A stretch of DNA of 64,000 nt from Metaphire vulgaris (Eukaryota > Annelida > Clitellata > Crassiclitellata > Megascolecidae), in NCBI GenBank assembly GCA_018105865.1, contig CM030848.1, positions 10,794,801-10,858,800 on the forward strand, given 5' to 3'. The notes beneath the pieces were generated by a model. The model saw only the letters and a list, made by a program, of their open reading frames with translations. It did no database searches and was not told where the DNA came from. Shown here piece by piece: positions 1,957 to 61,637 of the stretch (positions are counted from its first letter, which is position 1; each line of letters begins with the position of its first letter). The position numbers and the translations under genes were made by a program.

Positions 1957-1982
1957 CTGCCTCGGTTTGGAGGAACAATTTT
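1..1982 (-). CDS. Partial giant exon: diverged Glu-rich repeat array (203-residue unit)
   Basis: The minus strand is open from a TGA at 1983-1985 to the window edge with no ATG, as expected for an internal piece of an exon. It encodes three copies of a roughly 203-residue acidic unit. Segments such as ELIVGEPSVKVE, ELLISEDKEIPEAEEK, VQISDLRAVDTFAEP and AESPVAESVPLEE align one for one with EMLIGEPEVLKVS, EIVISEDREVAEEEQK, VQITDVAAVATFAEP and LESPVAEALPFEE of the 187-residue unit in the giant exon further right. It is therefore a diverged member of the same repeat family. The extra length comes from an internal duplication of the VPLEE..KAE..ILPEEE stretch. The upstream border (about 1905-2035) is ragged: a 15-bp duplication, a frameshift, then a decayed piece of the same unit. 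No acceptor could be assigned. It could be a second giant exon of the same gene, a tandem paralogue, or a decaying pseudo-array. Function is unknown. Confidence 0.7.
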
Positions 1983-2047
1983 TCAGTAGCCAATTTTTTT
2001 GTCCTCTGAAAAAATTAATAGTTTAATTGATAGCTGATCGTTTTAGT

Positions 2048-22798: not shown

Positions 22799-22898
22799 NN
22801 NNNNNNNNNNNNNNNNNNNNNNNNNNNNNNNNNNNNNNNNNNNNNNNNNNNNNNNNNNNNNNNNNNNNNNNNNNNNNNNNNNNNNNNNNNNNNNNNNN
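22799..22898. other. Assembly gap, exactly 100 N
   Basis: A run of N separates repeat sequence on the left from mid-MITE sequence on the right. The exact length of 100 is a conventional placeholder, so the true distance is unknown. Sequence quality declines on both sides. Confidence 0.95.
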
Positions 22899-24407
22899 AG
22901 CCAATATATAAAAATTAGGGGATTTTTAAAACTTGTAGAGAATCCCCCCAGAGAAGGCCTAGAATAAACACTGCAATTAAATGGTATTTGAAACCAGCCT
23001 TGCCTCCTCCTAGATCCGTAATGATCGCCAGATCAAAAAACTCTAACTTAACTGGAAGTTTTACAATTATGACATTAATCTGGTAATTTGATTAAGATCG
23101 CTGTCATGATAACATTGATGAGCATAAAGATCAATTCAAAAATATTCCTCTGACTCGCTTGCTTAAAGCCGTCACACTGAGTCCTACGCCAAATTCAAAT
23201 TCGACCATCAGACGTATATAATCTGTCCACCAATGTTACAAACATGTACTGATCTAAAGGCCAAAGATTTACTTGAGATGTTGCCCAAGATATTTCATAA
23301 AGAACGATTTGTACCCTCCTAAATAACATGGTAAATTCCAAATGAGTGTCATATGCATTATGGAATACTGAGTTAGAGTATGACAACTGTGCCGTGCAAC
23401 AACAAATACAAACAAGTTTAGAATAAAAGTGGTAGACACTACTTCACCAGCAAAAATTATTGTCTCAATGCACCAATGCATTTGAAACCCACACGACTGA
23501 GAGAAGGCCCGTTCACGTTCCATGAGTGCAGGAAATTAAATGGTATGCCTATCTCCTCTTCCCCCTCTCTTTACAGCCCTGAAGATTAGTGTGCAAAAGC
23601 ATTCAGGCATAGTGAAGACAGAGCTCTAAGCTAGAGATAGGCCCTACCAGATCAGTTGGAAAGAATTTAAGGACACACAAAATACATTGGCTAGTTCGAC
23701 TTTCAGGACGTCGAAGAAGCACAAAATAACTAGTGATGACTTTTTATTGATTGTCGGACTTTTTAGATACAAAATAGCACACAAACTGGCGATGATTACT
23801 TTTAAAATCAATCGATATAAAGTCATTTTAATGTAGCACAATGTCTAAAATCGGTAATCACTATTTTAGTGAAATGAAATCTAAGGATATTTAGTGTCCT
23901 TATTAAGGACAAGCGTTCTTAAGGACGGGGTCATGGAATTTAAGGACTGCCCTTATCATTTAAGGACGTCTGTAACCCTACTCTAAGCAGACAAGGAAAG
24001 AAGCAAAGTGCAGGCTAAAGCTGTCACAGAAGCCAACGGACACCGAGAATGAACACGATCACATAATTTTGCAGTTAAATATCGTTAAAACGTCGAGGCG
24101 AATTAACAAGTTTATTTTTCACACCAAATTTTTTCGTATTAATTAGTCATTAACCCTTTACCTGTTGGCTCGAGAATACTCCTTCATTTTACATTAAGTT
24201 ACAAATAAATGAACGGGTAAAGGGTTAATGTCAAATATCAATACCGAGGTAATATAAAAGTTAGCATATTAAAGGCCCAGATATTTACTTTAAAACTAAA
24301 CAATCAAACCAAAGAACAAAGCATTTAGACCCTAAACCTAGATCACGTGCTTAAAAGCAGAAAATCAGAGTTGTTAATAGCAAAAGTGGAAAAAGCATCT
24401 AATTATT
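22899..24407 (-). repeat. Second copy of the 3' flank of the giant exon
   Basis: The region matches about 8912-10421 almost base for base, with scattered single-base indels and substitutions. It carries the truncated 8808-type MITE (22899 onward), the hAT-like MITE (23632-23980, CTCTAAGC on both sides) and the 80-bp TTAA-bordered element (24150-24228). The shared insertions show the two flanks derive from one recent ancestor. Confidence 0.9.
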
Positions 24408-25450
24408 CTAGTTAACAATACCTCGTGTGCCTTCCAATCCTTTAAGCACTTCTGAAATTTCTTCCTCACTTGGGACATCATCCAGAGGACCATGAACACT
24501 GACAACCATTCTCTCTGTAACTAGCTGCTGCTCAGTAGACTTCTTAACTCTCTTTCTGATAACAGTGCCATCTGGCTGGATCTCCTCGTTGATTTCAATA
24601 TCTTGTGTCACTTGAGGCTCCTCATGGCTTCGGTCTGAATATCGACTAAACTGAGGGAGCTCACACTCAGTCTGGGATAATACGAGTTCGGAATCAATGA
24701 TTAGATGGCTGAGATCTTCTTCAGGACCTTCAAGTACAACCTTCTTTGTAACAGTTTGCTTCTGCCGTGTTTGAACGAGTTTGCGATGAACAGTTGTGCC
24801 ATCTGGAAGTGTATCTTCATATTCTGTCATGTCAGTTTCAACCGTCGGCTCTTCCTCGACTGTATCTGTAAACACTGTAATTGTTGCAGCAACACTTTCA
24901 AAATCCGCAAGACAAAGCTCGCCCTTATCGGGACTTTCACTTACACTAGACCGAGGACTAGGAAAATCAATTACTCCCGTTACATCCTCTTTCACAATTT
25001 TTTCCGAAATTTCCCATCGGTGCAACAGTACGAATGATCCGTGTAACAACATGTTTCCCAGGAGAACGAGACTCTGACAAAATCAATCCTTGATGCTCAT
25101 ACTTTTCTGCTTCACATGTAGCAAGTGCAGAATCCTGCTCGAATGACTTCTCAATAATTTCAAAAATCGGACACATACTGATCTGAACGCTTGAATTCGT
25201 CCTCAAAACAGATTTCAGACTTATCGGAATCCACAAGGGGAAGAAGTCGTGGAACAAAACCACCATTCTATTCTCACATAGTTCAGGACCAGCTCCATGG
25301 CAAACTGTTCATCAACCGGCGGAACATTTTCAGGAAGATCATCGCCAAAAACTCACTTTCAACAGTCTCCAAATCATATTCAGAAGGCCTCTCAATCACC
25401 AGATCACTTCGAACGATATGGGAAACAATCGTATCACCACGAAAACCAAA
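24408..25450 (-). CDS. Unique C-terminal tail, second copy with small frame breaks
   Basis: This encodes the same tail as 10422-11480. Against that intact copy, it has single-base losses at about 25015-25022 (ttcccatcggt for ttccccatcgggt), an extra A near 25165, and short losses near 25237-25256. All are in short runs. The comparison is the clearest evidence that breaks in this assembly are consensus errors rather than pseudogene decay. Confidence 0.75.
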
Positions 25451-28400
25451 GTCGACGACAGCTTCGAATCTCTCCGAAACCACTGCAGCTACCGAAATTT
25501 CTTCTACCACAGGAGCTGCTTCCTCTGGGGCCTCCTCTTCATCCAGCTCAATTATTTCCGTTGGTTCTGGTGATCCACGTATTTCTTCTTCTGTAACAAC
25601 CTGTTCCTCTTCGATTTCTACGGCAGCGATTTCTTCACGCTCGATTTCGGTTACTGCAAATTCTTCTCGTTCCAGAGACACCAGAGGCTCGGCAAACGTG
25701 GCGACTGCTGCAACGTCGGTTATTTGAACAGGTTCTTCTCGAATCTCATCCATGGCTTTCTGCTCATTCTCTGCTATTTCCCTGTCTTCTGAAATTACGA
25801 TTTCGTCTATTCGGGCTGCTTCAACTTCGTCTGAAGGAGCAGAAACTTTTAGTACTTCTGGTTCCCCGATCAACATTTCCACTTCAATAGGTATTTTCTC
25901 TTCTTCTACCTCCTCCTCCTTCTGCGCCTTTTCAGGAACCTCATCCACTGATATTTCTTCCACTTTCGTTATCTCTTCGAATGGAAGAGCTTCAGCCACA
26001 GGTGATTCCAGTTCGGTGACGGCCTCTTCAAATCTCTCCGAAACCACTGCCGCTACCGAAATTTCTTCTACCACAGGAGCTGCTTCCTCTGCGGCCTCAT
26101 CTTCACCCAGCTGAATAATTTCCGTTGGTTCTGGTGATTCGGGTCTTTCTTCTTCTGCAACAACCTGTTCCTGTTCGATTTCTTCGGCAGTGATTTCTTC
26201 ACGCTCGATTTCGGTTACTGCACCTTCTCGTTCCAGAGACACCAGAGGCTCGGCAAACGTGGCGACTGCTGCAACATCGGTTATTTGAACAGGTTCTTCT
26301 CGAATCTCGTCCATGACTTTCTGCTCTTCCTCTGCTACTTCCCTGTCTTCTGTTATTACGATTTCGTCTATTCGGGCTGCTTCAACTTCGTCTGAAGGAG
26401 CAGAAACTTTAAGTACTTCTGGTTCCCCGATCAACATTTCCTCTTCGATAGGTATTTTCTCTTCTTCTACCTCCTCCTCCTCCGCCATCTCAGGCACCTC
26501 TTCCACTGATATTTCTTCCACTTTCGTTATCTCTTCGAATGGAAGAGCTTCAGCCACAGGTGATTCCATTTCGGTGACGGCCTCTTCAAATCTCTCCGAA
26601 ACCACTGCCGCTACCGAAATTTCTTCTACCACAGGAGCTGCTTCCTCTGGGGCCTCCTCTTCACCCAGCTGAATAATTTCCGTTGGTTCTGGTGATCCAC
26701 GTATTTCTTCTTCTGAAACAACCTGTTCCTTTTCGATTTCTTCGGCAGTTATTTCCTCACGCTCGATTTCGGTTACTGCAACTTCTTCTCGTTCCAGAGA
26801 CACCAGAGGCTCGGCAAACGTGGCGACTGCTGCAACATCAGTTATTTGAACAGGTTCTTCTCGAATCTCGTCCATGACTTTCTGCTCCTCCTCTGCTACT
26901 TCCCTGTGTTCTGTTATTACGATTTCGTCTATTCGGGCTGCTTCAACTTCGTCTGAAGGAGCAGAAACTGTAAGTACTTCTGGTTCCCCGATCAACATTT
27001 CCTCTTCGATAGGTATTTTCTCTTCTTCTACCTCCTCCTCCTCCTCCGCCTTTTCAGGCACCTCTTCCACTGATATTTCTTCCACTTTCGTTATCTCTTC
27101 GAATGGAAGAGCTTCAGCCACAGGTGATTCCAGTTCGGTGACGGCCTCTTCAAATCTCTCTCCGAAACCTCTGCCGCTACCGAAATTTCTTCTACCACAG
27201 GAGCTGCTTCCTCTGCGGCCTCCTCTTCACCCAGCTCAATTATTTCCGTTGGTTCTGGTGATTCGGGTCTTTCTTCTTCTGCAACAACCTGTTCCTCTTC
27301 GATTTTTTCGGCAGTGATTTCTTCACGCTCGATTTCGGTTACTGCAACTTCTTCTCGTTCCAGAGACACCAGAGGCTCGGCAAACGTGGCGACTGCTGCA
27401 ACATCGGTTATTTGAACAGGTTCTTCTCGAATCTCATCAATGGCTTTCTGCTCTTCCTCTGCTATTTCCCTGTCTTCTGAAATTACGATTTCGTCTATTC
27501 GGGCTGCTTCAACTTCGTCTGAAGGAGCAGAAACTTTAAAGTACTTCTGGTTCCCCGATCAACATTTCCTCTTCGATAGGTATTTTCTTCTTCTACCTCC
27601 TCCTCCTCCTCCGCCATCTCAGGCACCTCTTCCACTGATATTTCTTCCACTTTCGTTATCTCTTCGAATGGAAGAGCTTTTTTTTCAGCCACAGTGATTC
27701 CAGTTCGGTGACGGCCTCTTCAAATTTCTCTCCGAAACCACTGCCGCTACATAGCTGGAATTTCTTCTACCAAATTTCTTCAGGAGCTGCTTCCTCTGCG
27801 GCCACTTCACCCAGCTCAATTATTTCCTTTGGTTCCGGTGATTCGGGTCTTTCTTCTTCTGCAACAACCTGTTCCTGTTCGATTTCTTCGGCAGTGATTT
27901 CTTCACGCTCGATTTCGGTTACTGCAACTTCTTCTCGTTCCAGAGACACCAGAGGCTCGGCAAACGTGGCGACTGCTGCAACATCGGTTATTTTAACAGG
28001 TTCTTCTCGAATCTCGTCCATGACTTTCTGCTCTTCCTCTGCTACTTCCCTGTCTTCTGTTATTACGATTTCGTCTATTCGGGCTGCTTCAACTTCGTCT
28101 GGAAGGAGCAGAAACTTAAGTACTTCTGGTTCCTCGATCAACATTTCCTCTTCGATAGTATTTTTCTTCTTCTACCTCCTCCTCCTCCTCCGCCTTTTCA
28201 GGCACCTCTTCCACTGATATTTCTTCCACTTTCGTTATCTCTTCGAATGGAAGAGCTTTCCAGCCACAGGTGATTCCAGTTCGGTGACGGCCTCTTCAAA
28301 TCTCTCCGAAACCTCTGCCGCTACCGAAATTTCTTCTACCACAGGAGCTGCTTCCTCTGCGGCCTCCTCTTCACCCAGCTCAATTATTTCCGGTTGGTTC

Positions 28401-31400
28401 TGGTGATCCACGTATTTCTTCTTCTGCAACAACCTGTTCCTTTTCGATTTCTTCGGCAGTGATTTCTTCACGCTCGATTTCGGTTACTGCAACTTCTTCT
28501 CGTTCCAGAGACACCAGAGGCTCGGCAAACGTGGCGACTGCTGCAACATCGGTTATTTGAACAGGTTCTTCTCGAATCTCGTCCATGACTTTCTGCTCTT
28601 CCTCTGCTACTTCCCTGTCTTCTGTTATTACGATTTCGTCTATTCGGGCTGCTTCAACTTCGTCTGAAGGAGCAGAAACTTTAAGTACTTCTGTTCCCCG
28701 ATCAACATTTCCTCTTCGATAGGTATTTCTCTTCTTCTACCTCCTCCTCCTCCTCCGCCTTTTCAGGCACCTCTTCCACTGATATTTCTTCCACTTTCGT
28801 TATCTCTTCGAATGGAAGAGCTTCAGCCACAGGTGATTCCAGTTCGGTGACGGCCTCTTCAAATCTCTCCGAAACCTCTGCGGCTACCGAAATTTCTTCT
28901 ACCACAGGAACTGCTTCCTCTGCGGCCTCCTCTTCACCCAGCTCAATTATTTCCGTTGGTTCTGGTGATTCGGGTCTTTCTTCTTCTGCAACAACCTGTT
29001 CCTCTTCGATTTTTTCGGCAGTGATTTCTTCACGCTCGATTTCGGTTACTGCAACTTCTTCTCGTTCCAGAGACACCAGAGGCTCGGCAAACGTGGCGAC
29101 TGCTGCAACATCGGTTATTTGAACAGGTTCTTCTCGAATCTCGTCCATGGCTTTCTGCTCTTCCTCTGCTATTTCCTTTGTCTTCTGCTATTACGATTTC
29201 GTCTATTCGGGCTGCTTCAACTTCGTCTGAAGGAGCAGAAACTTTTTAAGTACTTCTGGTTCCCTGATCAACATTTCCTCTTCGATAGGCATTTTCTCTT
29301 CTTCTATCTCCTCCTCCTCCGCCTTTTCAGGCACCTCTTCCACTGATATTTCTTCCACTTTCGTTATCTCTTCGAATGGAAGAGCTTCAGCCACAGGTGA
29401 TTCCAGTTCGGTGACGGCCTCTTCAAATCTCTCCGAAACTTCAGCCGCTACTGGAATTTCTTCTACCACAGGTACTGCTTCCTCATGGCCTCCTCTTCAC
29501 CCAGCTCAATTATTTCCTTTGGTTCTGGTGATTCAGGTCTTTCTTCTTCTGCAACAACCTGTTCCTCTTCGATTTTTTCGGCAGTGATTTCTTCACGCTC
29601 GATTTCGGTTACTGCAACTTCTTCTCGTTCCAGAGACACCAGAGGCTCGGCAAACGTGGCGACTGCTGCAACATCGGTTATTTGAACAGGTTCTTCTCGA
29701 ATCTCGTCCATGACTTTCTGCTCTTCCTCTGCTACTTCCCTGTCTTCTGTTATTACGATTTCGTCTATTCGGGCTGCTTCAACTTCGTCTGAAGGAGCAG
29801 AAACTTTAAGTACTTCTGGTTCCTCGATCAACATTTCCTCTTCGATAGGTATTTTCTCTTCTTCTACCTCCTCCTCCTCCTCCGCCTTTTCAGGCACCTC
29901 TTCCACTGATATTTCTTCCACTTTCGTTATCTCTTCGAATGGAAGAGCTTCAGCCACAGGTGATTCCAGTTCGGTGACGGCCTCTTCAAATCTCTCCGAA
30001 ACCTCTGCCGCTACCGAAATTTCTTCTACCACAGGAGCTGCTTCCTCTGCGGCCTCCTCTTCACCCAGCTCAATTATTTCGGTTGGTTCTGGTGATCCAC
30101 GTATTTCTTCTTCTGCAACAACCTGTTCCTTTTCGATTTCTTCGGCAGTGATTTCTTCACGCTCGATTTCGGTTACTGCAACTTCTTCTCGTTCCAGAGA
30201 CACCAGAGGCTCGGCAAACGTGGCGACTGCTGCAACATCGGTTATTTGAACAGGTTCTTCTCGAATCTCGTCCATGACTTTCTGCTCTTCCTCTGCTACT
30301 TCCCTGTCTTCTGTTATTACGATTTCGTCTATTCGGGCTGCTTCAACTTCGTCTGAAGGAGCAGAAACTTTAAGTACTTCTGGTTCCCCGATCAACATTT
30401 CCTCTTCGATAGGTATTTTTTCTCTTCTTCTACCTCCTCCTCCTCCGCCTTTTCAGGCACCTCTTCCACTGATATTTCTTCCACTTTCGTTATCTCTTCG
30501 AATGGAAGAGCTTCAGCCACAGGTGATTCCAGTTCGGTGACGGCCTCTTCAAATCTCTCCGAAACCTCTGCCGCTACCGAAATTTCTTCTACCACAGGAG
30601 CTGCTTCCTCTGCGGCCTCCTCTTCACCCAGCTCAATTATTTCCGTTGGTTCTGGTGATTCGGGTCTTTCTTCTTCTGCAACAACCTGTTCCTCTTCGAT
30701 TTTTTCGGCAGTGATTTCTTCACGCTCGATTTCGGTTACTGCAACTTCTTCTCGTTCCAGAGACACCAGAGGCTCGGCAAACGTGGCGACTGCTGCAACA
30801 TCGGTTATTTGAACAGGTTCTTCTCGAATCTCGTCCATGGCTTTCTGCTCTTCCTCTGCTATTTCCTTGTCTTCTGCTATTACGATTTCGTCTATTCGGG
30901 CTGCTTCAACTTCGTCTGAAGGAGCAGAAACTTTAAGTACTTCTGGTTCCCCGATCAACATTTCCTCTTCGATAGGCATTTTCTCTTCTTCTATCTCCTC
31001 CTCCTCCGCCTTTTCAGGCACCTCTTCCACTGATATTTCTTCCACTTTCGTTATCTCTTCGAATGGAAGAGCTTCAGCCACAGGTGATTCCAGTTCGGTG
31101 ACGGCCTCTTCAAATCTCTCCGAAACTTCAGCCGCTACCGGAATTTCTTCTACCACAGGTACTGCTTCCTCTGCGGCCTCCTCTTCACCCAGATCAATTA
31201 TTTCCTTTGGTTCTGGTGATTCGGGTCTTTCTTCTTCTGCAACAACCTGTTCCTCTTCGATTTTTTCGGCAGTGATTTCTTCACGCTCGATTTCGGTTAC
31301 TGCAACTTCTTCTCGTTCCAGAGACACCAGAGGCTCGGCAAACGTGGCGACTGCTGCAACATCGGTTATTTGAACAGGTTCTTCTCGAATCTCGTCCATG

Positions 31401-34400
31401 GCTTCCTGCTCTTCCTCTGCTATTTCCTTGTCTTCTGCTATTACGATTTCGTCTATTCGGGCTGCTTCAACTTCGTCTGAAGGAGCAGAAACTTTAAGTA
31501 CTTCTGGTTCCCCGATCAACATTTCCTCTTCGATAGGTATTTTCTCTTCTTCTACCTCCTCCTCCTCCGTCTTTTCAGGCACCTCTTCCACTGATATTTC
31601 TTCCACTTTCGTTATCTCTTCGAATGGAAGAGCTTCAGCCACAGGTGATTCCAGTTCGGTGACGGCCTCTTCAAATCTCTCCGAAACCTCTGCCGCTACC
31701 GAAATTTCTTCTACCACAGGAGCTGCTTCCTCTGCGGCCTCCTCTTCACCCAGCTCAATTATTTCCGTTGGTTCTGGTGATCCACGTATTTCTTCTTCTG
31801 CAACAACCTGTTCCTTTTCGATTTCTTCGGCAGTGATTTCTTCACGCTCGATTTCGGTTACTGCAACTTCTTCTCGTTCCAGAGACACCAGAGGCTCGGC
31901 AAACGTGGCGACTGCTGCAACATCGGTTATTTGAACAGGTTCTTCTCGAATCTCATCAATGGCTTTCTGCTCTTCCTCTGCTATTTCCCTGTCTTCTGAA
32001 ATTACGATTTCGTCTATTCGGGCTGCTTCAACTTCGTCTGAAGGAGCAGAAACTTTAAGTACTTCTGGTTCCCCGATCAACATTTCCTCTTCGATAGGTA
32101 TTTTCTCTTCTTCTACCTCCTCCTCCTCCTCCGCCTTTTCAGGCACCTCTTCCACTGATATTTCTTCCACTTTCGTTATCTCTTCGAATGGAAGAGCTTC
32201 AGCCACAGGTGATTCCAGTTCGATGACGGCCTCTTCAAATCTCTCCGAAACCTCTGCCGCTACCAAAATTTCTTCTACCACAGGAGCTGCTTCCTCTGGG
32301 GCCTCCTCTTCACCCAGCTGAATAATTTCCGTTGGTTCTGGTGATCCACGTATTTCTTCTTCTGCAACAACCTGTTCCTCTTCGATTTCTTCGGCAGTTA
32401 TTTCTTCACGCTCGATTTCGGTTACTGCAACTTCTTCTCGTTCCAGAGACACCAGAGGCTCGGCAAACGTGGCGACTGCTGCAACATCGGTTATTTGAAC
32501 AGGTTCTTCTCGAATCTCGTCCATGACTTTCTGCTCTTCCTCTGCTACTTCCCTGTCTTCTGTTATTACGATTTCGTCTATTCGGGCTGCTTCAACTTCG
32601 TCTGAAGGAGCAGAAACTTTAAGTACTTCTGGTTCCCCGATCAACATTTCCTCTTCGACAGGTATTTTCTCTTCTTCTACCTCCTCCACCTCCGCCTTCT
32701 CAGGCACCTCTTCCACTGATATTTCTTCCACTTTCGTTATCTCATCGAATGGAAGAGCTTCAGCCACAGGTGATTCCAGTTCGGTGACGGCCTCTTCAAA
32801 TCTCTCCGAAACCACTGCCGCTACCGGAAATTCTTCTAGCACAGGAGCTGCTTCCTCTGCGGTCTCCTCTTCACCCAGCTGAATAATTTCCGTTGGTTCT
32901 GGTGATCCACGTATTTCTTCTTCTGCAACAACATGTTCCTCTTCGATTTCTTCGGCAGTGATTTCTTCACGCTCGATTTCGGTTACTGCAACTTCTTCTC
33001 GTTCCAGAGACACCAGAGGCTCGGCAAACGTGGCGACTGCTGCAACATCGGTTATTTGAACAGGTTCTTCTCGAATCTCGTCCATGACTTTCTGCTCTTC
33101 CTCTGCTACTTCCCTGTCTTCTGTTATTACGATTTCGTCTATTCGGGCTGCTTCAACTTCGTCTGAAGGAGCAGAAACTTTAAGTACTTCTGGTTCCCCG
33201 ATCAACATTTCCTCTTCGATAGGTATTTTCTCTTCTTCTACCTCCTCCTCCTCCGCCTTCTCAGGCACCTCTTCCACTGATATTTCTTCCACTTTCGTTA
33301 TCTCTTCGAATGGAAGAGCTTCAGCCACAGGTGATTCCAGTTCGGTGACGGCCTCTTCAAATCTCTCCGAAACCACTGCCGCTACCGGAAATTCTTCTAG
33401 CACAGGAGCTGCTTCCTCTGCGGTCTCCTCTTCACCCAGCTGAATAATTTCCGTTGGTTCTGGTGATCCACGTATTTCTTCTTCTGCAACAACATGTTCC
33501 TCTTCGGTTTCTTCGGCAGTGATTTCTTCACGCTCGATTTCGGTTACTGCAACTTCTTCTCGTTCCAGAGACACCAGAGGCTCGGCAAACGTGGCGACTG
33601 CGGCAACATCGGTTATTTGAACAGGTTCTTCTCGAATCTCGTCCATGACTTTCTGCTCTTCCTCTGCTACTTCCCTGTCTTCTGTTATTACGATTTTGTC
33701 TATTCGGGCTGCTTCAACTTCGTCTGAAGGAGCAGAAACTTAAGTACTTCTGGTTCCCCGATCAACATTTCCTCTTCGATAGGTATTTTCTCTTCTTCTA
33801 CATCCTCCTCCTCCGCCTTCTCAGGCACCTCTTCCACTGATATTTCTTCCACTTTCGTTATCTCTTCGAATGGAAGAGCTTCAGCCACATGTGATTCCAG
33901 TTCGGTGACGGCCTCTTCAAATCTCTCCGAAACCTCTGCCGCTACCGGATTTTCTTCTACCACAGGAGCTGCTTCCTCTGCGGCCACTTCACCCAGCTCA
34001 ATTATTTCCTTTGGTTCCGGTGATTCGGGTCTTTCTTCTTCTGCAACAACCTGTTCCTGTTCGATTTCTTCGGCAGTGATTTCTTCACGCTCGATTTCGG
34101 TTACTGCAACTTCTTCTCGTTCCAGAGACACCAGAGGCTCGGCAAACGTGGCGACTGCTGCAACATCGGTTATTTGAACAGGTTCTTCTCGAATCTCGTC
34201 CATGAATTTCTGCTCTTCCTCTGCTACTTCCCTGTCTTCTGTTATTACGATTTCGTCTATTCGGGCTGCTTCAACTTCGTCTGAAGGAGCAGAAACTTTA
34301 AGTACTTCTGGTTCCTCGATCAACATTTCCTCTTCGATAGGTATTTTCTCTTCTTCTACCTCCTCCTCCTCCTCCGCCTTTTCAGGCACCTCTTCCACTG

Positions 34401-37400
34401 ATATTTCTTCCACTTTCGTTATCTCTTCGAATGGAAGAGCTTCAGCCACAGGTGATTCCAGTTCGGTGACGGCCTCTTCAAATCTCTCCGAAACCTCTGC
34501 CGCTACCGAAATTTCTTCTACCACAGGAGCTGCTTCCTCTGCGGCCTCCTCTTCACCCAGCTCAATTATTTCCGTTGGTTCTGGTGATTCGGGTCTTTCT
34601 TCTTCTGCAACAACCTGTTCCTCTTCGATTTCTTCGGCAGTGATTTCTTCACGCTCGATTTCGGTTACTGCAACTTCTTCTCGTTCCAGAGACACCAGAG
34701 GCTCGGCAAACGTGGCGACTGCTGCAACATCGGTTATTTGAACAGGTTCTTCTCGAATCTCGTCCATGACTTTCTGCTCTTCCTCTGCTACTTCCCTGTC
34801 TTCTGTTATTACGATTTCGTCTATTCGGGCTGCTTCAACTTCGTCTGAAGGAGCAGAAACTTTAAGTACTTCTGGTTCACCGATCAACATTTCTTCTTCG
34901 ATAGGTATTTTCTCTTCTTCTACCTCCTCCTCCTCCGCCTCCTCAGGCACCTCTTCCACTGATATTTCTTCCACTTTCGTTATCTCTTCGAAAGGAAGAG
35001 CTTCAGCCACAGGTGATTCCAGTTCGGTGACGGCCTCTTCAAATCTCTCCGAAACCTCTGCCGCTACCGGTATTTCTTCTACCACAGGAAATGCTTCCTC
35101 TGCGGCCTCCTCTTCACCCAGCTCAATTATTTCCTTTGGTTCTGGTGATTCGGGTCTTTCTTCTTCTGCAACAACCTGTTCCTGTTCGATTTTTTCGGCA
35201 GTGATTTCTTCACGCTCGATTTCGGTTACTGCAACTTCTTCTCGTTCCAGAGACACCAGAGGCTCGGCAAACGTGGCGACTGCTGCAACATCGGTTATTT
35301 GAACAGGTTCTTCTCGAATCTCATCAATGGCTTTCTGCTCTTCCTCTGCTATTTCCCTGTCTTCTGAAATTACGATTTCGTCTATTCGGGCTGCTTCAAC
35401 TTCGTCTGAAGGAGCAGCAACTTTTAGTACTTCTGGTTCCCCGATCAACATTTCCTCTTCGATAGCTATTTTCTCTTCTTCTACCTCCGCCTCCTTCGCC
35501 TTCTCAGGCACCACTTCCACTGATATTTCTTCAACTTTCGTTATCTCTTCGAATGGAAGAGCTTCAGCCACAGGTGATTCCAGTTCGGTGACGGCCTCTT
35601 CAAATCTCTCCGAAACCTCTGCCGCTACCGAAATTTCTTCTACCACAGGAGCTGCTTCCTCTGCGGCCTCCTCTTCACCCAGCTCAATTATTTCCGTTGG
35701 TTCTGGTGATTCGGGTCTTTCTTCTTCTGCAACAACCTGTTCCTGTTCGATTTCTTCGGCAGTGATTTCTTCACGCTCGATTTCGGTTACTGCAACTTCT
35801 TCTCGTTCCAGAGACACCAGAGGCTCGGCAAACGTGGCGACTGCTGCAACATCGGTTATTTGAACAGGTTCTTCTCGAATCTCGTCCATGGCTTTCTGCT
35901 CTTCCTCTGCTATTTCCTTGTCTTCTGCTATTACGATTTCGTCTATTCGGGCTGCTTCAACTTCGTCTGAAGGAGCAGAAACTTTAAGTACTTCTGGTTC
36001 CCCGATCAACATTTCCTCTTCGATAGGTATTTTCTCCTCTTCTACCTCCTCCTCCTCCGCCTTCTCATGCACCTCTTCCACTGATATTTCTTCCACTTTC
36101 GTTATCTCTTCGAATGGAAGAGCTTCAGCCACAGGTGATTCCAGTTCGGTGACGGCCTCTTCAAATCTCTCCGAAACCTCTGCCGCTACCGGAATTTCTT
36201 CTACCACAGGAGCTGCTTCCTCTGCGTCCTCCTCTTCACCCAGCTCAATTATTTCCTTTGGTTCTGGTGATCCACGTATTTCTTCTTCTGCAACAACCTG
36301 TTCCTGTTCGATTTTTTCGGCAGTGATTTCTTCACGCTCGATTTCGGTTACTGCAACTTCTTCTCGTTCCAGAGACACCAGAGGCTCGGCAAACGTGGCG
36401 ACTGCTGCAACATCGGTTATTTGAACAGGTTCTTCTCGAATCTCGTCCATGACTTTCTGCTCTTCCTCTGCTACTTCCCTGTGTTCTGTTATTACGATTT
36501 CGTCTATTCGGGCTGCTTCAACTTCGTCTGAAGGAGCAGCAACTTTTAGTACTTCTGGTTCCCCGATCAACATTTCCTCTTCGATAGCTATTTTCTCTTC
36601 TTCTACCTCCGCCTCCTTCGCCTTCTCAGGCACCACTTCCACTGATATTTCTTCAACTTTCGTTATCTCTTCGAATGGAAGAGCTTCAGCCACAGGTGAT
36701 TCCAGTTCGGTGACGGCCTCTTCAAATCTCTCCGAAACCTCTGCCGCTACCGTAATTTCTTCTACCACAGGAGCTGCTTCCTCTGCGTCCTCCTCTTCAC
36801 CCAGCTCAATTATTTCCTTTGGTTCTGGTGATCCACGTATTTCTTCTTCTGCAACAACCTGTTCCTGTTCGATTTTTTCGGCAGTGATTTCTTCACGCTC
36901 GATTTCGGTTACTGCAACTTCTTCTCGTTCCAGAGACACCAGAGGCTCGGCAAACGTGGCGACTGCTGCAACATCGGTTATTTGAACAGGTTCTTCTCGA
37001 ATCTCGTCCATGATTTTCTGCTCTTCCTCTGCTACTTCCCTGTCTTCTGATATTACGATTTCGTCTATTCGGGCTGCTTCAATTTCGTCTGAAGGAGCAG
37101 CAACTTTTAGTACTTCTGGTTCACCGATCGTCATTTCATCTTCGACAAGCATCTTCTTTTCTTCTACCTCCTCCTCCGGCTTTTCAGGCACCTCTTCAAT
37201 CGTATAACCACGAAAACCAACGTCGCCTAAAGGCCTACAAGGCCTTCGTGTATGATAGCCATCAAAAAAGGAAACATGATCAGAAGTAACTTCCGCAAAT
37301 TCCTCATCGTAACATGGAATTTCTGCAATGGAGACCTGTAGGAGAGAATCGCCAAACTGTAACAATTCCATGTCGTTTAGCTGCGGTAACTCTTCAACGT

Positions 37401-40400
37401 CTACAACATCTTTTTTCTCTAAAGACAACACTGGCACCGCAAAACTCAGAACTAAAGCGGCGTCTTCCTTGAGCTCCGTATGATCTGCCAACAGTTCTCT
37501 CGATACTTCGTCCAATTTAGTAATCTCTTCGAATGGAAGAGTTTCAGCCACATGTGATTCCGGTTCGTCGACGACAGCTGCGAATCTCTCCGAAACCACT
37601 GCTGCTACCGAAATTTCTTCTACCACAGGAGCTGCTTCCTCTGCGGCCTCCTCTTCACCCAGCTCAATTATTTCCGTTGGTTCTGGTGATTCGGGTCTTT
37701 CTTCTTCTGCAACAACCTGTTCCTGTTCGATTTCTTCGGCAGTGATTTCTTCACGCTCGATTTCGGTTACTGCAACTTCTTCTCGTTCCAGAGACACCAG
37801 AGGCTCGGCAAACGTGGCGACTGCTGCAACATCGGTTATTTGAACAGGTTCTTCTCGAATCTCATCCATGGCTTTCTGCTCTTCCTCTGCTATTTCCCTG
37901 TCTTCTGAAATTACGATTTCGTCTATTCGGGCTGCTTCAACTTCGTCTGAAGGAGCAGCAACTTTAAGTACTTCTGGTTCCCCGATCAACATTTCCTCTT
38001 CGATAGGTATTTTCTCTTCTTCTACCTCCTCCTCCTTCTCCTCCTCCGCCTTTTCAGGCACCTCTTCCACTGATATTTCTTCCACTTTCGTTATCTCTTC
38101 GAATGGAAGAGTTTCAGCCACAGGTGATTCCAGTTCGGTGACGGCCTCTTCAAATCTCTCCGAACCTCTGCTGCTGCTACCGAAATTTCTTCTACCACAG
38201 GAGCTGCTTCCTCTGGGGCCTCCTCTTCACCCAGCTCAATTATTTCCGTTGGTTCTGGTGATTCGGGTCTTTCTTCTTCTGCAACAACCTGTTCCTCTTC
38301 GATTTCTTCGGCAGTGATTTCTTCACGCTCGATTTCGGTTACTGCAACTTCTTCTCGTTCCAGAGACACCAGAGGCTCGGCAAACGTGGCGACTGCTGCA
38401 ACATCGGTTATTTGAACAGGTTCTTCTCGAATCTCGTCCATGGCTTTCTGCTCTTCCTCTGCTATTTCCCTGTCTTCTGATATTACGATTTCGTCTATTC
38501 GGGCTGCTTCAACTTCGTCTGAAGGAGCAGAAACTTTAAGTACTTCTGGTTCCCCGATCAACATTTCCTCTTCGATAGGTATTTTCTCTTCTTCTACCTC
38601 CTCCTCCTCCGCCTTTTCAGGCACCTCTTCCACTGATATTTCTTCCACTTTCGTTATCTCTTCGAATGGAAGAGCTTCAGCCACAGGTGATTCCAGTTCG
38701 GTGACGGCCTCTTCAAATCTCTCCGAAACCTCTGCCGCTACCGAAATTTCTTCTACCACAGGAGCTGCTTCCTCTGCGGCCTCCTCTTCACCCAGCTCAA
38801 TTATTTCCGTTGGTTCTGGTGATTCGGGTCTTTCTTCTTCTGCAACAACCTGTTCCTGTTCGATTTCTTCGGCAGTGATTTCTTCACGCTCGATTTCGGT
38901 TACTGCAACTTCTTCTCGTTCCAGAGACACCAGAGGCTCGGCAAACGTGGCGACTGCTGCAACATCGGTTATTTGAACAGGTTCTTCTCGAATCTCGTCC
39001 ATGACTTTCTGCTCTTCCTCTGCTACTTCCCTGTCTTCTGTTATTACGATTTCGTCTATTCGGGCTGCTTCAACTTCGTCTGAAGGAGCAGAAACTTAAG
39101 TACTTCTGGTTCCCCGATCAACATTTCCTCTTCGATAGGTATTTTCTCTTCTTCTACCTCCTCCTCCTCCTCCGCCTTTTCAGGCACCTCTTCCACTGAT
39201 ATTTCTTCCACTTTCGTTATCTCTTCGAATGGAAGAGCTTCAGCCACAGGTGATTCCAGTTCGGTGACGGCCTCTTCAAATCTCTCCGAAACCTCTGCCG
39301 CTACCGAAATTTCTTCTACCACAGGAGCTGCTTCCTCTGCGGCCTCCTCTTCACCCAGCTCAATTATTTCCGTTGGTTCTGGTGATTCGGGTCTTTCTTC
39401 TTCTGCAACAACCTGTTCCTGTTCGATTTTTTCGGCAGTGATTTCTTCACGCTCGATTTCGGTTACTTGAACTTCTTCTCGTTCCAGAGACACCAGAGGC
39501 TCGGCAAACGTGGCGACTGCTGCAACATCGGTTATTTGAACAGGTTCTTCTCGAATCTCGTCCATGGCTTTCTGCTCTTCCTCTGCTATTCCCTGTCTTC
39601 TGATATTACGATTTCGTCTATTCGGGCTGCTTCAACTTCGTCTGAAGGAGCAGAAACTTTAAGTACTTCTGGTTCCCCGATCAACATTTCCTCTTCGATA
39701 GGTATTTTCTCTTCTTCTATCTCCTCCTCCTCCGCCTTTTCAGGCACCTCTTCCACTGATATTTCTTCCACTTTCGTTATCTCTTCGAATGGAAGAGCTT
39801 CAGCCACAGGTGATTCCAGTTCGGTGACGGCCTCTTCAAATCTCTCCGAAACCTCTGCCGCTACCGGAATTTCTTCTACCACAGGAGCTGCTTCCTCTGC
39901 GTCCTCCTCTTCACCCAGCTCAATTATTTCCTTTGGTTCTGGTGATCCACGTATTTCTTCTTCTGCAACAACCTGTTCCTGTTCGATTTTTTCGGCAGTG
40001 ATTTCTTCACGCTCGATTTCGGTTACTGCAACTTCTTCTCGTTCCAGAGACACCAGAGGCTCGGCAAACGTGGCGACTGCTGCAACATCGGTTATTTGAA
40101 CAGGTTCTTCTCGAATCTCATCAATGGCTTTCTGCTCTTCCTCTGCTATTTCCCTGTCTTCTGAAATTACGATTTCGTCTATTCGGGCTGCTTCAACTTC
40201 GTCTGAAGGAGCAGCAACTTTAAGTACTTCTGGTTCCCCGATCAACATTTCCTCTTCGATAGGTATTTTCTCTTCTTCTACCTCCTCCTCCTCCGCCTTT
40301 TCAGGCACCTCTTCCACTGATATTTCTTCCACTTTCGTTATCTCTTCGAATGGAAGAGCTTCAGCCACAGGTGATTCCAGTTCGGTGACGGCCTCTTCAA

Positions 40401-52400: not shown

Positions 52401-55400
52401 TCGGTTACTGCAACTTCTTCTCGTTCCAGAGACACCAGAGGCTCGGCAAACGTGGCGACTGCGGCAACATCGGTTATTTGAACAGGTTCTTCTCGAATCT
52501 CATCCATGACTTTCTGCTCTTCCTCTGCTATTTCCCTGTCTTCTGTTATTACGATTTCGTCTATTCGGGCTGCTTCAACTTCGTCTGAAGGAGCAGAAAC
52601 TTTAAGTACTTCTGGTTCCCCGATCAACATTTCCTCTTCGATAGGTATTTTTTCTCTTCTTCTACCTCCTCCTCCCTCCGCCTTTTCAGGCACCTCTTCC
52701 ACTGATATTTCTTCCACTTTCGTTATCTCTTCGAATGGAAGAGCTTCAGCCACAGGTGATTCCAGTTCGGTGACGGCCTCTTCAAATCTCTCCGAAACCT
52801 CTGCCGCTACCGAAATTTCTTCTACCACAGGAGCTGCTTCCTCTGGGGCCTCCTCTTCACCCAGCTCAATTATTTCCTTTGGTTCTGGTGATTCGGGTCT
52901 TTCTTCTTCTGCAACAACCTGTTCCTGTTCGATTTCTTCGGCAGTGATTTCTTCACGCTCGATTTCGGTTACTGCAACTTCTTCTCGTTCCAGAGACACC
53001 AGAGGCTCGGCAAACGTTGCGACTGCTGCAACATCGGTTATTTGAACAGGTTCTTCTCGAATCTCGTCCATGACTTTCTGCTCTTCCTCTGCTACTTCCC
53101 TGTGTTCTGTTATTACGATTTCGTCTATTCGGGCTGCTTCAACTTCGTCTGAAGGAGCAGAAACTTTAAGTACTTCTGGTTCCCCGATCAACATTTCCTC
53201 TTCGATAGGTATTTTCTCTTCTTCTACCTCCTCCTCCTCTTCCACTGATATTTCTTCCACTTTCGTTATCTCTTCGAATGGAAGAGCTTCAGCCACAGGT
53301 GATTCCAGTTCGGTGACGGCCTCTTCAAATCTCTCCGAAACCCCTGCCGCTACCGAAATTTCTTCTACCACAGGAGCTGCTTCCTCTGCGTCCTCCTCTT
53401 CACCCAGCTCAATTATTTCCTTTGGTTCTGGTGATTCGGGTCTTTCTTCTTCTGCAACAACCTGTTCCTCTTCGATTTCTTCGGCAGTGATTTCTTCACG
53501 CTCGATTTCGGTTACTGCAACTTCTTCTCGTTCCAGAGACACCAGAGGCTCGGCAAACGTGGCGACTGCTGCAACATCGGTTATTTGAACAGGTTCTTCT
53601 CGAATCTCATCCATGGCTTTCTGCTCTTCCTCTGCTATTTCCCTGTCTTCTGAAATTACGATTTCGTCTATTCGGGCTGCTTCAACTTCGTCTGAAGGAG
53701 CAGCAACTTTAAGTACTTCTGGTTCCCCGATCAACATTTCCTCTTCGATAGGTATTTTCTTTTCTTCTACCTCTTCCTCCTCCTCCTCCGCCTTTTCAGA
53801 CACCTCTTCCACTGATATTTCTCCCACTTTCATTATCTCTTCGAATGGAAGAGCTTCAGCCAAAGGTGATTCCAGTTCGGTGACGGCCTCTTCAAATCTC
53901 TCCGAAACCACTGCAGCTACCGAAATTTCTTCTACCACAGGAGCTGCTTCCTCTCGGGCCTCCTCTTCACCCAGCTGAATAATTTCCGTTGGTTCTGGTG
54001 ATTCGGGTCCTTCATCTTCTGCAACAACCTGTTCCTCTTCGATTTCTTCGGCAGTGATTTCTTCACGCTCGATTTCGGTTACTGCAACTTCTTCTCGTTC
54101 CAGAGACACCAGAGGCTCGGCAAACGTGGCGACTGCTGCAACATCGGTTATTTGAACAGGTTCTTCTCGAATCTCATCAATGGCTTTCTGCTCTTCCTCT
54201 GCTATTTCCCTGTCTTCTGAAATTACGATTTCGTCTATTCGGGCTACTTCAACTTCGTCTGAAGGAGCAGAAACTTTTAGTACTTCTGGTTCCCGGATCA
54301 ACATTTCCTCTTCGATAGGTATTTTCTCTTCTTCTACCTCCTCCTCCTTCACCTCCTCCGCCTTTTCAGGCACCTCTTCCACTGATATTTCTTCCACTTT
54401 CGTTATCTCTTCGAATGGAAGAGCTTCAGCCACAGGTGATTCCAGTTCGGTGACGGCTTCCTCAAATCTCTCCGAAACCACTGCCGCTACCGAAAGTTCT
54501 TCTACCACAGGAGCTCTTTCCTCTCGGGCCTCCTCTTCACCCAGCTGAATAATTTCCGTTGGTTCTGGTGATTCGGGTCTTTCTTCGTCTGCAACAACCT
54601 GTTCCTGTTCGATTTCTTCGGCAGTGATTTCTTCACGCTCGATTTCGGTTACTGCAACTTCTTCTCGTTCCAGAGACACCAGAGGATCGGCAAACGTGGC
54701 GACTGCTGCAACATCGGTTATTTGAACAGGTTCTTCTCGAATCTCGTCCATGGCTTTCTGCTCTTCCTCTGCTATTTCCCTGTCTTCTGATATTACGATT
54801 TCGTCTATTTGGGCTGCTTTCAACTTCGTCTGAAGGAGCATAAACTTTAAGTACTTCTGGTTCCCGATCAACATTTCCTCTTCGATAGGTATTTTCTCTC
54901 TTCTACCTCCTCCTCCCTCCTCCTCCGCCTTTTCAGGCACCTCTTCCACTGATATTTCTTCCACTTTCGTTATCTCTTCGAATGGAAGAGCTTCAGCCAC
55001 AGGTGATTCCAGTTCGGTGACGGCCTCTTCAAATCTCTCCGAAACCTCTGCCTCTACCGAAATTTCTTCTACCACAGGAGCTGCTTCCTCTCGGGCCTCC
55101 TCTTCACCCAGCTGAATAATTTCCGTTGGTTCTGGTGATTCGGGTCCTTCTTCTTCTGCAACAACCTGTTCCTCTTCGATTTCTTCGGCAGTGATTTCTT
55201 CACGCTCGATTTCGGTTACTGCAACTTCTTCTCGTTCCAGAGACACCAGAGGCTCGGCAAACGTGGCGACTGCTGCAACATCGGTTATTTGAACAGGTTC
55301 TTCTCGAATCTCATCCATGGCTTTCTGCTCTTCCTCTGCTATTTCCCTGTCTTCTGAAATTACGATTTCGTCTATTTGGGCTGCTTCAACTTCGTCTGAA

Positions 55401-58272
55401 GGAGCAGCAACTTTAAGTACTTCTGGTTCCCCGATCAACATTTCCTCTTCGATAGGTATTTTCTCCTCTTCTACCTCCTCCTCCTTCTCCTCCTCCGCCT
55501 TTTCAGGCACCTCTTCAACTGATATTTCTTCCACTTTCGTTATCTCTTCGAATGGAAGAGCTTCAGCCACAGGTGATTCCAGTTCGGTGACGGCCTCTTC
55601 AAATCTCTCCGAAACCTCTGCCTCTACCGAAATTTCTTCTACCACAGGAGCTGCTTCCTCTGCGTCCTCCTCTTCACCCAGCTCAATTATTTCCTTTGGT
55701 TCTGGTGATCCACGTATTTCTTCTTCTGCAACAACCTGTTCCTCTTCGATTTTTTCGGCAGTGATTTCTTCACGCTCGATTTCGGTTACTGCAACTTCTT
55801 CTCGTTCCAGAGACACCAGAGGCTCGGCAAACGTGGCGACGGTTGCAACATCGGTTATTTGAACAGGTTCTTCTCGAATCTCGTCCATGACTTTCTGCTC
55901 TTCCTCTGCTACTTCCCTGTCTTCTGATATTACGATTTCGTCTATTCGGGCTGCTTCAACTTCGTCTGAAGGAGCAGAAACTTTAAGTACTTCTTGCTTC
56001 CCGATCAACATTTCCTCTTCGATAGGTATTTTCTCTTCTTCTACCTCCTCCTCCTCCGCTTTTTCAGGCACCTCTTCCACTGATATTTCTTCCACTTTCG
56101 TTATCTCTTCGAATGGAAGAGCTTCAGCCACAGGTGATTCCAGTTCGGTGACGGCCTCTTCAAATCTCTCCGAAACCTCTGCCGCTACCGAAATTTCTTC
56201 TACCACAGGAGCTGCTTGCTCTGGGCCTCCTCTTCACGCCAGCTCAATTATTTCCGTTGGTTCTGGTGATTCAGTTCTTTCTTCTTCTGCAACAACCTGT
56301 TCCTCTTCGGTTTCTTCAGCAGCGATTTCTTCTTGCTTGATTTCGGTTACTGCAACTTCTTCTCGTTCCAGAGACACCAGAGGCTCGGCAAACGTGGCGA
56401 CTGCTGCAACATCGGCTATTTGACCAGGTTCTTCTCGAATCTCGTCCATGACTTTCTGCTCTTCCTCTGCTACTTCCCTGTCTTCTGATATTACGATTTC
56501 GTCTATTCGGGCTGCTTCAACTTCGTCTGAAGGAGCAGAAACTTTAAGTACTTCTTGCTGCCCGATCAACATTTCCTCTTCAATAGGTATTTTCTCTTCT
56601 TCTACCTCCTCCTCCTCCGCTTTTTCAGGCACCTCTTCCACTGATATTTCTTCCACTTTCGTTATCTCTTCGAATGGAAGAGCTTCAGCCACAGGTGATT
56701 CCAGTTCGGTGACGACCTCTTCAAATCTCTCCGAAACCACTGCCGCTACCGAAATTTCTTCTACCACAGGAGCTGCTTGCTCTCGGGCCTCCTCTTCACG
56801 CCGCTCAATTATTTCCGTTGGTTCTGGTGATTCAGTTCTTTCTTCTTCTGCAACAACCTGTTCCTCTTCGGTTTCTTCAGCAGCGATTTCTTCTTGCTTG
56901 ATTTCGGTTACTGCAACTTCTTCTCGTTCCAGAGACACCAGAGGCTCGGCAAACGTGGTGACTGCTGCAACATCGGCTATTTGAACAGGTTCTTCTCGAA
57001 TCTCGTCCATGACTTTCTGCTCTTCCTCTGCTACTTCCCTGTCTTCTGTTATTACGAATTCGTTGATTCGGGCTGCTTCTAATTCGTCTGAAGGAGAAAC
57101 GACTTCTTGTACTTCTGGTTCACCGATCAACATTTGCTCTTCGACAGGTATCTTCTCTTCTTCTACCTCCTCCTCCTCCTCTGCCTTTTCAGGCACCTCT
57201 TCTGCTGATATTTCTTCCACTTTCGTTATCTTTTCCAATGTAAGAGTTTCAGCCACAGGTGATTTCGGTTTGGTGAGAGTAGCTTCCATTCTCTCCTCAA
57301 CCACAGTAGCCTCTGAAATTTCTTTCAGTACTGGCGCTGTTTTTGTGATCGTTGGTTCTGGTGATTTATGTCTGTCTTTTGTAACAACCTCTTCCTCTTT
57401 AATTTTTTGGACAGCTATTGCTTCGTGTGTGATTTCACTTTCGGAGACTTTTGTTATCGCTAGGGATACTTGAGTTTCCTCCTTAGCAGTTGTCTCTTTT
57501 TTGAAAGGTATTTCAATTGCGTCCTTTCGGATATCGTGTAGTAGAGATGCCTTTGTTAATTTTGTTGTTCTTTTTATCCAGGTGCCATCAGGCATTGACT
57601 GCTTCGTTGTGTGTTTAGATTCTTTGATGAGAAGATTGCCATCCGTCAGTGAATTAACCCCTGGTGGAAGTTCAATTATATCTTCAAATATTTCTCGTCC
57701 AACTACTTGATCGATGATATGTCTTTCAGTTTCGATGCCGTTAATTCTGGTAACTTCTGTATTTGCTTTGATATGTGTTACTGTTAAAATATTTCTGCTT
57801 ATCTTCATTCCATTTTCAGCAACTTCATTCTCCGTAAATTGCTCCTGTTTCAATGTCTCTATTCCTTCTAGTGTGTCCTTGGTTATGAATGGTTCTTGAA
57901 TTGGACTTGGTATTTCAATTTGTTCAGGATAAGGCAATGATTGCGGAATATGTTCTCCTTGTCCGGCACTGAGAGTAACGGTATCTGTAGGGCTATACAC
58001 TTTCTCAATGGTTTCAGGAATGTATACAAAATCTCCAGACACTTTACTCAGTCCTTTTTCAGAAATTTCTGATATTTCTGTTAACAGTTGCAAATTGGCG
58101 CTTTCCTCTTTGTCAACTATAACAAAGCTACCTGGTGGAGAAGGACTTATTTGAATGGAACTCTCTGCCATGGATTGTTCACGCTGATAGGAAATTTGCT
58201 GCTCTAGAATTGGCTCATAATCTGGCTCCGAGAAACCTTTGTCTTCATTGTAGGAATTATCCATAATAAATT
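24408..58272 (-). CDS. Giant terminal exon of a Glu-rich tandem-repeat protein (about 33.9 kb)
   Basis: On the minus strand the exon starts at an acceptor (ctattgtatgtttacag before 58272) in phase 1 and ends at a TAG stop (24408-24410). Layout: head of about 345 residues (58272-57240); acidic array interrupted once by an interlude (37590-37195); tail (about 25450-24408). The array has about 56 units of 187 residues, each about one third Glu. A unit runs DEIREEPVQITDVAAVATFAEP, LVSLEREEVAVTEIEREE, a SPEP motif, EEISVAAEVSERFEEAVTE, ESPVAEALPFEEITKVEE, a variable Glu run, then EMLIGEPEVLKVSAPSDE. The longest uninterrupted frames are about 1,470 (38121-33700), 1,400 (56206-52004) and 1,084 codons. 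About 25 small indels break the frame, mostly 1 bp in homopolymers, so I treat them as probable consensus errors. No enzyme motif or membrane segment is seen. It is likely an extended acidic spacer, in architecture like giant-exon ankyrin isoforms; identity is unproven. Confidence 0.8.
25450..37195 (-). repeat. Glu-rich 561-bp tandem repeats, about 21 units (distal block)
   Basis: Unit landmarks occur at about 25752, 26313, 26874, 27440, 28020, 28580, 29147, 29710, 30274, 30837, 31398, 31959, 32523, 33084, 33645, 34202, 34766, 35327, 35888, 36449 and 37010. Units at 35327 and 36449 share a rare variant (VEVVPEKAKEAEVEEEKIAI) and form a two-unit higher-order repeat. The 27.4-28.7 kb part is indel-rich. 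Confidence 0.9.
37195..37590 (-). CDS. Interlude module: diverged repeat within the giant array
   Basis: About 130 residues break the regular array without breaking the frame. Parts are recognisable as a strongly diverged unit (LSFAVPVLSLEKKDVVDVEE against ATFAEPLVSLEREEVAVTEI). The rest is unique and less acidic, including LLADHTELKED, NDMELLQFGDSLLQVSIAEI and SFFDGYHTRRPCRPLGDVGF. It ends FRGYTIEEVPEKPEEEVEEK, sharing GFRG with the start of the C-terminal tail. It may be an old boundary between two formerly separate arrays, or a conserved spacer domain. Confidence 0.75.
37590..57240 (-). repeat. Glu-rich 561-bp tandem repeats, about 35 units (proximal block)
   Basis: Landmarks recur from about 37868 to 57009 every 540-570 bp. 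Units nearest the head (57.0, 56.4 and 55.9 kb) are the most distinctive (EIKQEEIAAEETEEEQ, EIIERREEEAREQAAP), while internal ones are almost identical, the usual pattern when array edges escape homogenisation. Two units (about 49.3 and 53.2 kb) lack the same 18 bp in the Glu-run linker. A 19-bp local duplication at about 42605-42630 breaks the frame. Confidence 0.9.
57240..58272 (-). CDS. Unique N-terminal head of the giant exon
   Basis: The first roughly 345 residues after the acceptor are non-repetitive. They include FIMDNSYNEDKGFSEPDYEP, a stretch rich in SP and P, an ELPPGVNSLTDGNLLIKESK segment and a PDG module (SMPDGTWIKRTTKLTKASLL) like the three in the tail. A gradual transition follows (KSPVAETLTLEKITKVEEIS) into the first true repeat. 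The ATG in FIM need not be a start: the frame is open through the acceptor and matches the phase-1 ends of the upstream exons (G|AA giving Glu), so this is more likely internal to a longer protein. Confidence 0.75.
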
Positions 58273-58359
58273 CTGTAAACATACAATAGATTTAAGAAGT
58301 ATCTTGAAAGCTTTATTAAATCAACACCCTAATGAAATGCTAATTCTCACGTACTACAT

Positions 58360-58770: not shown

Positions 58771-58880
<110 letters not shown>

Positions 58881-58968
58881 TCATCGTCATCATCATCAAC
58901 AACATCAGCCATGGACTCAGCACCCGTTGGTGTCTGAAGCATTCATTGCAGTCTTATCCCAATCGCTT

Positions 58969-61510: not shown

Positions 61511-61571
<61 letters not shown>

Positions 61572-61596
61572 CATAGCATTTGTATATATATGTATA

Positions 61597-61637
<41 letters not shown>

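Follow-up and report, generated by a model that had tools for sequence, protein, structure and literature searches.

An ankyrin gene with a giant exon

The window analysed here, 64,000 nucleotides of the genome of the annelid Metaphire vulgaris (assembly GCA_018105865.1, contig CM030848.1, here C17, positions 10,794,801-10,858,800), carries part of an ankyrin gene that very probably includes a coding exon of about 34 kb, built largely of acidic tandem repeats. Ankyrin is a scaffold protein that in other animals ties nerve-cell membranes to the inner skeleton. Coordinates are window positions unless a contig is named, all features of the window lie on the minus strand, and the genome comprises 728 Mb in 246 contigs.

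The exons upstream of the repeats match the Pfam families Ank, ZU5, UPA_2 (expectation value, E, 6e-53) and Death (E 9e-9), and in the PDB the UPA-death part is closest to Ankyrin-2 (4d8o, E 2.1e-68), with an alignment that extends across both the UPA and the death domain. One ZU5 exon (C17:10866725-10866949, minus strand) covers positions 1-74 of the domain and another covers positions 72-97. Further exons are present before UPA, at the place where canonical ankyrins have a second ZU5 domain. In the stretch 97-78.8 kb, by window numbering and past the window end, a hidden Markov model of our own, with seeds from the same gene, gave 22 ankyrin-repeat matches, several of them partial, in a region that contains a gap of 2500 N; a canonical ankyrin has 24. 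These domains identify an ankyrin gene, whose giant exon follows the death domain. Other Glu-rich protein families, first considered as candidates, were dropped once the upstream exons had been read as ankyrin.

The death-domain exon, two small exons and the giant exon are joined by phase-1 introns (Table 1), with splice sites read by eye, and the giant exon opens at an ACAG/AA acceptor (the slash marks the splice site), also in phase 1. The initial annotation, made from the letters alone, had proposed one coding exon on the basis of this acceptor and of phase agreement with three upstream exons; both observations hold.

Repeat units

With a profile of the repeat unit, and counting rows with scores above 250, nhmmer returned 57 rows in the array directly downstream of the acceptor (copy A). 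A small duplication divides one unit between two of these rows (43156-42613 and 42842-42577), which leaves about 56 units plus a divergent partial unit just upstream at 57450-57218. The unit consensus is 561 bp or 187 residues long, with 34.2% Glu and a net charge of -0.305 per residue, in line with the 56 or so units of 187 residues and about 34% Glu first estimated. Val and Ala are also high. Glu, Ser, Thr, Asp, Lys and Pro make up 34.2, 4.3, 4.3, 2.7, 2.7 and 6.4% of the unit consensus; their sum, 54.6%, describes this consensus and not the whole exon, and lies, mainly through Glu, at the edge of the >55% bias that PMC5135030 gives as a common, though not defining, trait of giant ankyrins. 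Some unit pairs are nearly identical (A14/A20, 0.0% difference; A48/A51, 0.5%), and a search for higher-order periodicity gave no dominant offset among 1 to 30. The last third of the N-terminal part of the exon is itself unit-like, with 38% identity to the unit over 119 residues. Pfam gave no match on 56237-58291; on 10425-13784 it gave YdfZ and SHNi-TPR, which were set aside as each fell below its cut-off.

Substitutions in the units avoid stop codons

Substitutions were scored against the consensus across 76 units, and the expected number of nonsense changes was taken from the observed substitution spectrum. Only one of 891 substitutions creates a stop codon, where 45.2 were expected, a depletion of about 45-fold. 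This single nonsense change, at 28226, sits in the copy A unit that has the most frame shifts. Insertions and deletions (indels) of at least 3 nt are mostly frame-keeping, with 46 of 53 being multiples of three; 30 of these 46 fall within one 30-base bin of the unit, which spans a GAG/GAA run. Stop codons are thus kept out of units whose residue sequence is otherwise scarcely preserved, the pattern expected of a coding spacer and not of a satellite. Because substitutions in the units almost never create a stop, we read the array as coding, and very probably as part of a genuine exon of a giant ankyrin.

Table 1. Features of the giant-exon locus, in window coordinates.
Feature	Positions	Strand	Remarks
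Death-domain exon	64547-64212, just beyond window	-	336 bp, multiple of 3; phase 1
Small post-death-domain exon, 57 codons	63095..63265	-	171 bp, multiple of 3; phase 1 at both ends
Second small post-death-domain exon, 55 codons	62484..62648	-	165 bp, multiple of 3; phase 1 at both ends
Giant exon, copy A	24408..58272	-	Begins at acceptor 58272; probable phase-1 donor after 24422, else stop 24410-24408
N-terminal part, upstream of array	57451..58272	-	Carries module of about 100 residues (PDGTW) common to the paralogous ankyrin giant exon
Array A, about 56 acidic units of about 561 bp / 187 residues	25452..57450	-	nhmmer, composition, nonsense depletion; first row partial, divergent
Divergent spacer inside array A	37200..37513	-	Shorter relative in array B
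C-terminal tail, unique, two PDGT motifs	24422..25451	-	About 350 residues; frame-broken in copy A
3' non-coding flank, copy A	22899..24407	-	Near-identical to 8910-10421
Assembly gap, 100 N, between the two versions	22799..22898
Array B, 20 unit rows (first partial)	11472..22798	-	Second version of the array's 3' part; starts mid-unit
Divergent spacer inside array B	13652..13850	-	nhmmer
Tail of copy B, single open frame	10422..11471	-	Likely donor after 10436, else stop 10424-10422; homologous to the tails of array C and of the paralogous exon
Array C start, related second giant exon	1..2040	-	Units 603/609 bp; continues about 11 kb past the window's left end

Long ATC and AT microsatellites lie at 58771-58907 and 61501-61822, in the intron directly upstream of the giant exon.

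Frame breaks in the assembly

The longest open reading frame in the array has 1508 residues (33703-38226), and the first two open stretches of the exon, 58272-56237 and 56233-52007, jointly exceed 3 kb. The initial annotation had asked whether one frame runs from 58272 to 24408. In the assembly this frame is broken, needing 43 shifts of 1-2 bases along a codon-model path that is itself free of stops; the first and last of the shifts are doubtful, being end effects. The shifts are unevenly spread. In copy A, 20 of the 43 lie within 30.4-25.0 kb, toward the contig end at the N gap, and in the second version of the array, on the far side of that gap (copy B), 15 of 22 lie within 22.8-21.0 kb, at the other contig end, the first of these also being an end effect. 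Within the unit they return, in both copies, to the same few short A and G runs: TACTTAAAG, where two nearby positions have 7 and 3 short indels, ATCGGGGAA with 5, GAGAAAATA with 3 and 3, and GACAGGGAA with 3. Runs of at least three identical bases make up 14% of consensus positions and hold 21 of the 70 short (1-2 base) indels. We infer that the frame breaks are consensus errors that polishing could not remove from such a repeat; the recurrent spots and the crowding at contig ends fit the first suspicion of assembly error. The exact length of the exon is blurred by these errors.

Two versions of the 3' part of the array

The segment 22899-25000 of copy A aligns with 8910-11014 of copy B with 2072 of 2117 columns identical, 27 gap positions and 18 mismatches. 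The units themselves diverge more: with indels excluded, differences are 2.7-5.2% for the last four pairs (A54-A57 against B74-B77) and 1.8-9.7% for the last twelve. On these differences we rejected the idea that B is a mere second consensus of the units of A. Copies A and B are probably two unmerged haplotype contigs that were scaffolded side by side, which is the simplest reading. Since the array's 3' part is present in two differing versions, one on each side of the N gap, the unit number is uncertain; 56 describes the assembly and not necessarily the animal. The divergent spacers of the two copies differ in length and share sequence, and by eye they resemble the start of the tail.

The end of the giant exon and array C

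A second array, array C, runs on the same strand from about 2040 leftward to about -10 kb, with units of 201/203 residues. Aligned over 319 residues, its unit is 47% identical to that of array A, in register (doubled units were compared with no composition correction, so that shared Glu-richness inflates this value), and its tail has 55% identity to the A tail over 51 residues. The first unit of array C contains an in-frame stop, from which we take its 5' end to be damaged or mis-assembled. Its position and strand suggest that array C is part of the same gene. Beyond it, from -14.95 to -18.69 kb, lies an open frame of about 3.7 kb (about 1250 residues), rich in Ser, Glu and Asp, with a phase-1 acceptor.

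The ends of the giant exon, of array C and of the paralogous exon described below share a GGT codon that offers a candidate phase-1 donor, namely CGAG/GTATTG in the giant exon, CTAG/GTATTC in the paralog and CTAG/GTTTGT in array C. All three are only fair matches to the donor consensus, and a stop follows within at most 6 codons in each. The terminal stop reported at first is indeed present in frame at 24410-24408. It occupies bases 12-14 past the likely donor, and the exon may therefore be internal.

A paralogous giant exon with a different array

A genome search for ZU5 gave 27 matches, of which 14, the window gene included, span positions 1 or 2 to about 71-76 with E of 1e-14 or better and are spread over 11 scaffolds. 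Ten further loci were fetched; the five that read in sense look ankyrin-type by eye, and the other five lay antisense. The ankyrin family of this genome may be unusually large.

One of these genes, at C17:1,107,300-1,147,299, has ZU5, UPA-like and death-domain-like exons (by eye) followed by five abutting or overlapping frames that together span about 20 kb. The first frame contains a module homologous to the PDGTW module of the window exon (35% identity over 102 residues, E 7e-10) inside a 507-bp array of 19 copies with a 97% match, which is followed by a 138/411-bp array. The last frame ends in a homologous tail (38% identity over 273 residues to the tail of copy B, E 2e-43). Between the two homologous ends, the arrays of the paralog gave no significant match to the 561-bp unit (best E 3.3). 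In the one comparable paralog the exon ends are inherited and what lies between them differs. Finding this pair of ends around one near-open stretch of a separate gene independently supports the reading of 58272 to 24422 as one exon. The 507-bp unit contains what is a single-copy module in the window exon, as if the module itself had been amplified. For a gene on C23, no giant frame was found within 20 kb downstream of ZU5, in a piece that contains 2500 N, has no visible death domain and may stop short.

Taken together, the acceptor, the phase of the introns, the depletion of nonsense changes, the longer indels that mostly keep the frame, and a paralogous exon whose ends are homologous and enclose a nearly open frame give good support to one coding exon of about 34 kb, as first proposed, though the assembly holds no single open frame for it.

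Predicted properties and proposed role

At 112 Da per residue, the approximately 11,290 residues of the exon would weigh about 1.26 MDa, and the array would carry a net charge of about -3,250. The contour length comes to about 4 µm and the coil, if the chain is expanded, to about 150 nm. AlphaFold modelling of two units gave a mean predicted local distance difference test score of 39.3 and a predicted template modelling score of 0.14, with a few low-confidence helices of up to 24 residues. SxIP-like motifs were absent from the unit, the N-terminal part, the tail and two clean stretches of the array that were scanned; one occurs in the open frame downstream of array C.

By analogy with its relatives, this ankyrin is probably neuronal. 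With the giant exon spliced in, the ankyrin core would bind membrane proteins and spectrin, and the array would form a long, disordered and strongly negative spacer, with about -0.3 charges per residue over a contour of some 4 µm. Its most likely role would be that of an entropic and electrostatic spacer between the membrane cytoskeleton and the axonal core. The conserved end module and tail could then make specific contacts, probably on the microtubule side of the neuronal cytoskeleton. Skipping of the exon would yield an ordinary short ankyrin. Unequal exchange would lengthen or shorten the array, so that its length probably varies among individuals.

Alternative readings

The reading in which canonical ankyrin exons lead via two small phase-1 exons to a coding exon of about 34 kb, with the array as a spacer, is one to which we give a probability of about 0.86. 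Several results weigh against it. The assembly contains no single open frame, with its 43 shifts; short indels (70) are commoner than longer ones (53) and, in runs of at least two identical bases, are not enriched (33 of 70, where such runs make up 50% of positions). Substitutions show no excess at third codon positions (254/187/186 by codon position in copy A, 92/89/83 in copy B), and synonymous changes number 224 where 207.4 were expected, so that the usual sign of coding constraint is missing; such constraint is visible only in the avoidance of stops and in the longer indels that keep the frame. A protein-database search with the first 685 residues of the exon (56237-58291) found nothing at E 1e-3 among 7997 candidates scored; these were proteins of similar length only, and the null does not show that relatives lack the repeat. 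The two versions of the array put the unit count in doubt, and the strong acidity speaks against the array binding tubulin, itself acidic, directly. Some of these points would suit a decaying or non-coding satellite whose frame breaks are real and which looks coding only because it descends from a coding unit: there is no intact frame, and the residues drift almost neutrally. Codon-position counts alone would not reject such a satellite or pseudogene. We reject it on the nonsense depletion, and consider it highly improbable also because so many longer indels keep the frame, because the short indels revisit a handful of unit positions and cluster toward the contig ends, and because the paralogous exon has a few breaks of like kind in a repeat that matches at 97%.

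Given a coding exon, two questions about its surroundings have competing answers. Copies A and B could be a real tandem duplication, with two giant exons and two tails on one chromosome. Units near the end that differ far more than the tail end and flank would fit this, as would a spacer separated from the end by about 20 units in A but by 4 in B. The exchange of units can make repeat alleles diverge more than their flanks, the duplicated flank reaches the edge of the 100-N gap with no unique base beyond it, B begins in mid-array as expected of two unmerged contigs of one locus, and the frame breaks crowd at both contig ends; a duplication is accordingly unlikely, and we prefer unmerged haplotypes. 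The other question, whether the exon is terminal, is closer. The protein may end at the stop in copy A or B, array C and the frame beyond it then belonging to other transcripts, as would agree with a stop 3 to 6 codons past the Gly codon in A/B, the paralog and C, and with the Gly-Ile/Leu that precedes it in all of them. All three ends have a GGT that makes a phase-1 donor, in the same phase as the other junctions read, and the further long frame has an acceptor of that phase. A terminal exon is a serious contender but the less probable of the two, and on balance the splice-site readings favour an internal one.

Comparison with known giant ankyrins

Long ankyrin exons occur in all bilaterian groups examined by Jegla et al. 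(2016; PMC5135030), with a mean of 8103 +/- 4850 bp (n = 30). In protostomes and echinoderms they follow the death domain, and a subset contain repeat arrays, of units of 36-228 bp in numbers from 5 to over 160, that are recognisable only between very closely related species (PMC5135030). For the giant exon described here, the initial reading as one coding exon is well supported, and its class, the giant ankyrins, is already known. It shares with the published exons its place after the death domain, a single very long reading frame and Glu-richness. Its unit falls outside the 36-228 bp range and its length is far above the mean. Set against these published values, it is an extreme member of the class, with both unit and exon length above them, so that long ankyrin exons now span a wider range of sizes than the printed values compared. 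Among the papers listed in our literature searches, none settles the record for exon length, and none was on a giant ankyrin in a cephalopod.

A bolder version, which we hold tentatively and think doubtful, is that the exon truly measures at least about 34 kb and that no other ankyrin, perhaps no other animal gene, has a longer coding exon; that with array C the product would reach about 2 MDa; and that A and B are alleles, so that a single neuronal scaffold protein would vary among individuals by thousands of residues. If alleles do differ in array length, it would become possible to test in nature whether the length of a giant ankyrin sets axon geometry. The locus also illustrates a pitfall for gene prediction, in that the frame is broken up where repeats are unpolished and the exon appears twice where haplotypes are unmerged.

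Among known systems, vertebrate ankyrin-G and ankyrin-B also have a long exon that makes giant isoforms (PMC5135030). The vertebrate long exons precede the death domain, and that of AnkG is without arrays of homologous repeats, in contrast to the arrayed exon after the death domain seen here (PMC5135030). Two tandem long exons were described in 8 of 23 loci, being homologous to each other in Branchiostoma (PMC5135030). In the Drosophila ankyrin Ank2-XL the long exon again lies downstream of the death domain, with a core array of repeats and a postulated spacer role. Its product is given as 1200 kDa and its C-terminal repeat region is called essential for microtubule interaction (PMC6703079), so that a product above 1.2 MDa, first proposed for this exon and in line with our calculation, is not unique. 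The array of Ank2-XL has 93 repeats of 76 residues (PMC5135030), or about 21 kb by the arithmetic of 93 x 228 bp, against an exon of about 34 kb here with a unit of 187 residues (561 bp) and about 34% Glu. What sets the present genome apart from the bilaterian exons compared is the pair of paralogs with unrelated arrays and homologous exon ends. The gene at C17:1.107 Mb resembles the window gene in its ZU5, UPA-like and death-domain-like exons and in the near-open frame of about 20 kb that follows them, and differs from it in its repeat units. Homologous ends around unrelated arrays in two genes form a natural experiment that may separate the binding parts of a giant ankyrin from mere spacer.

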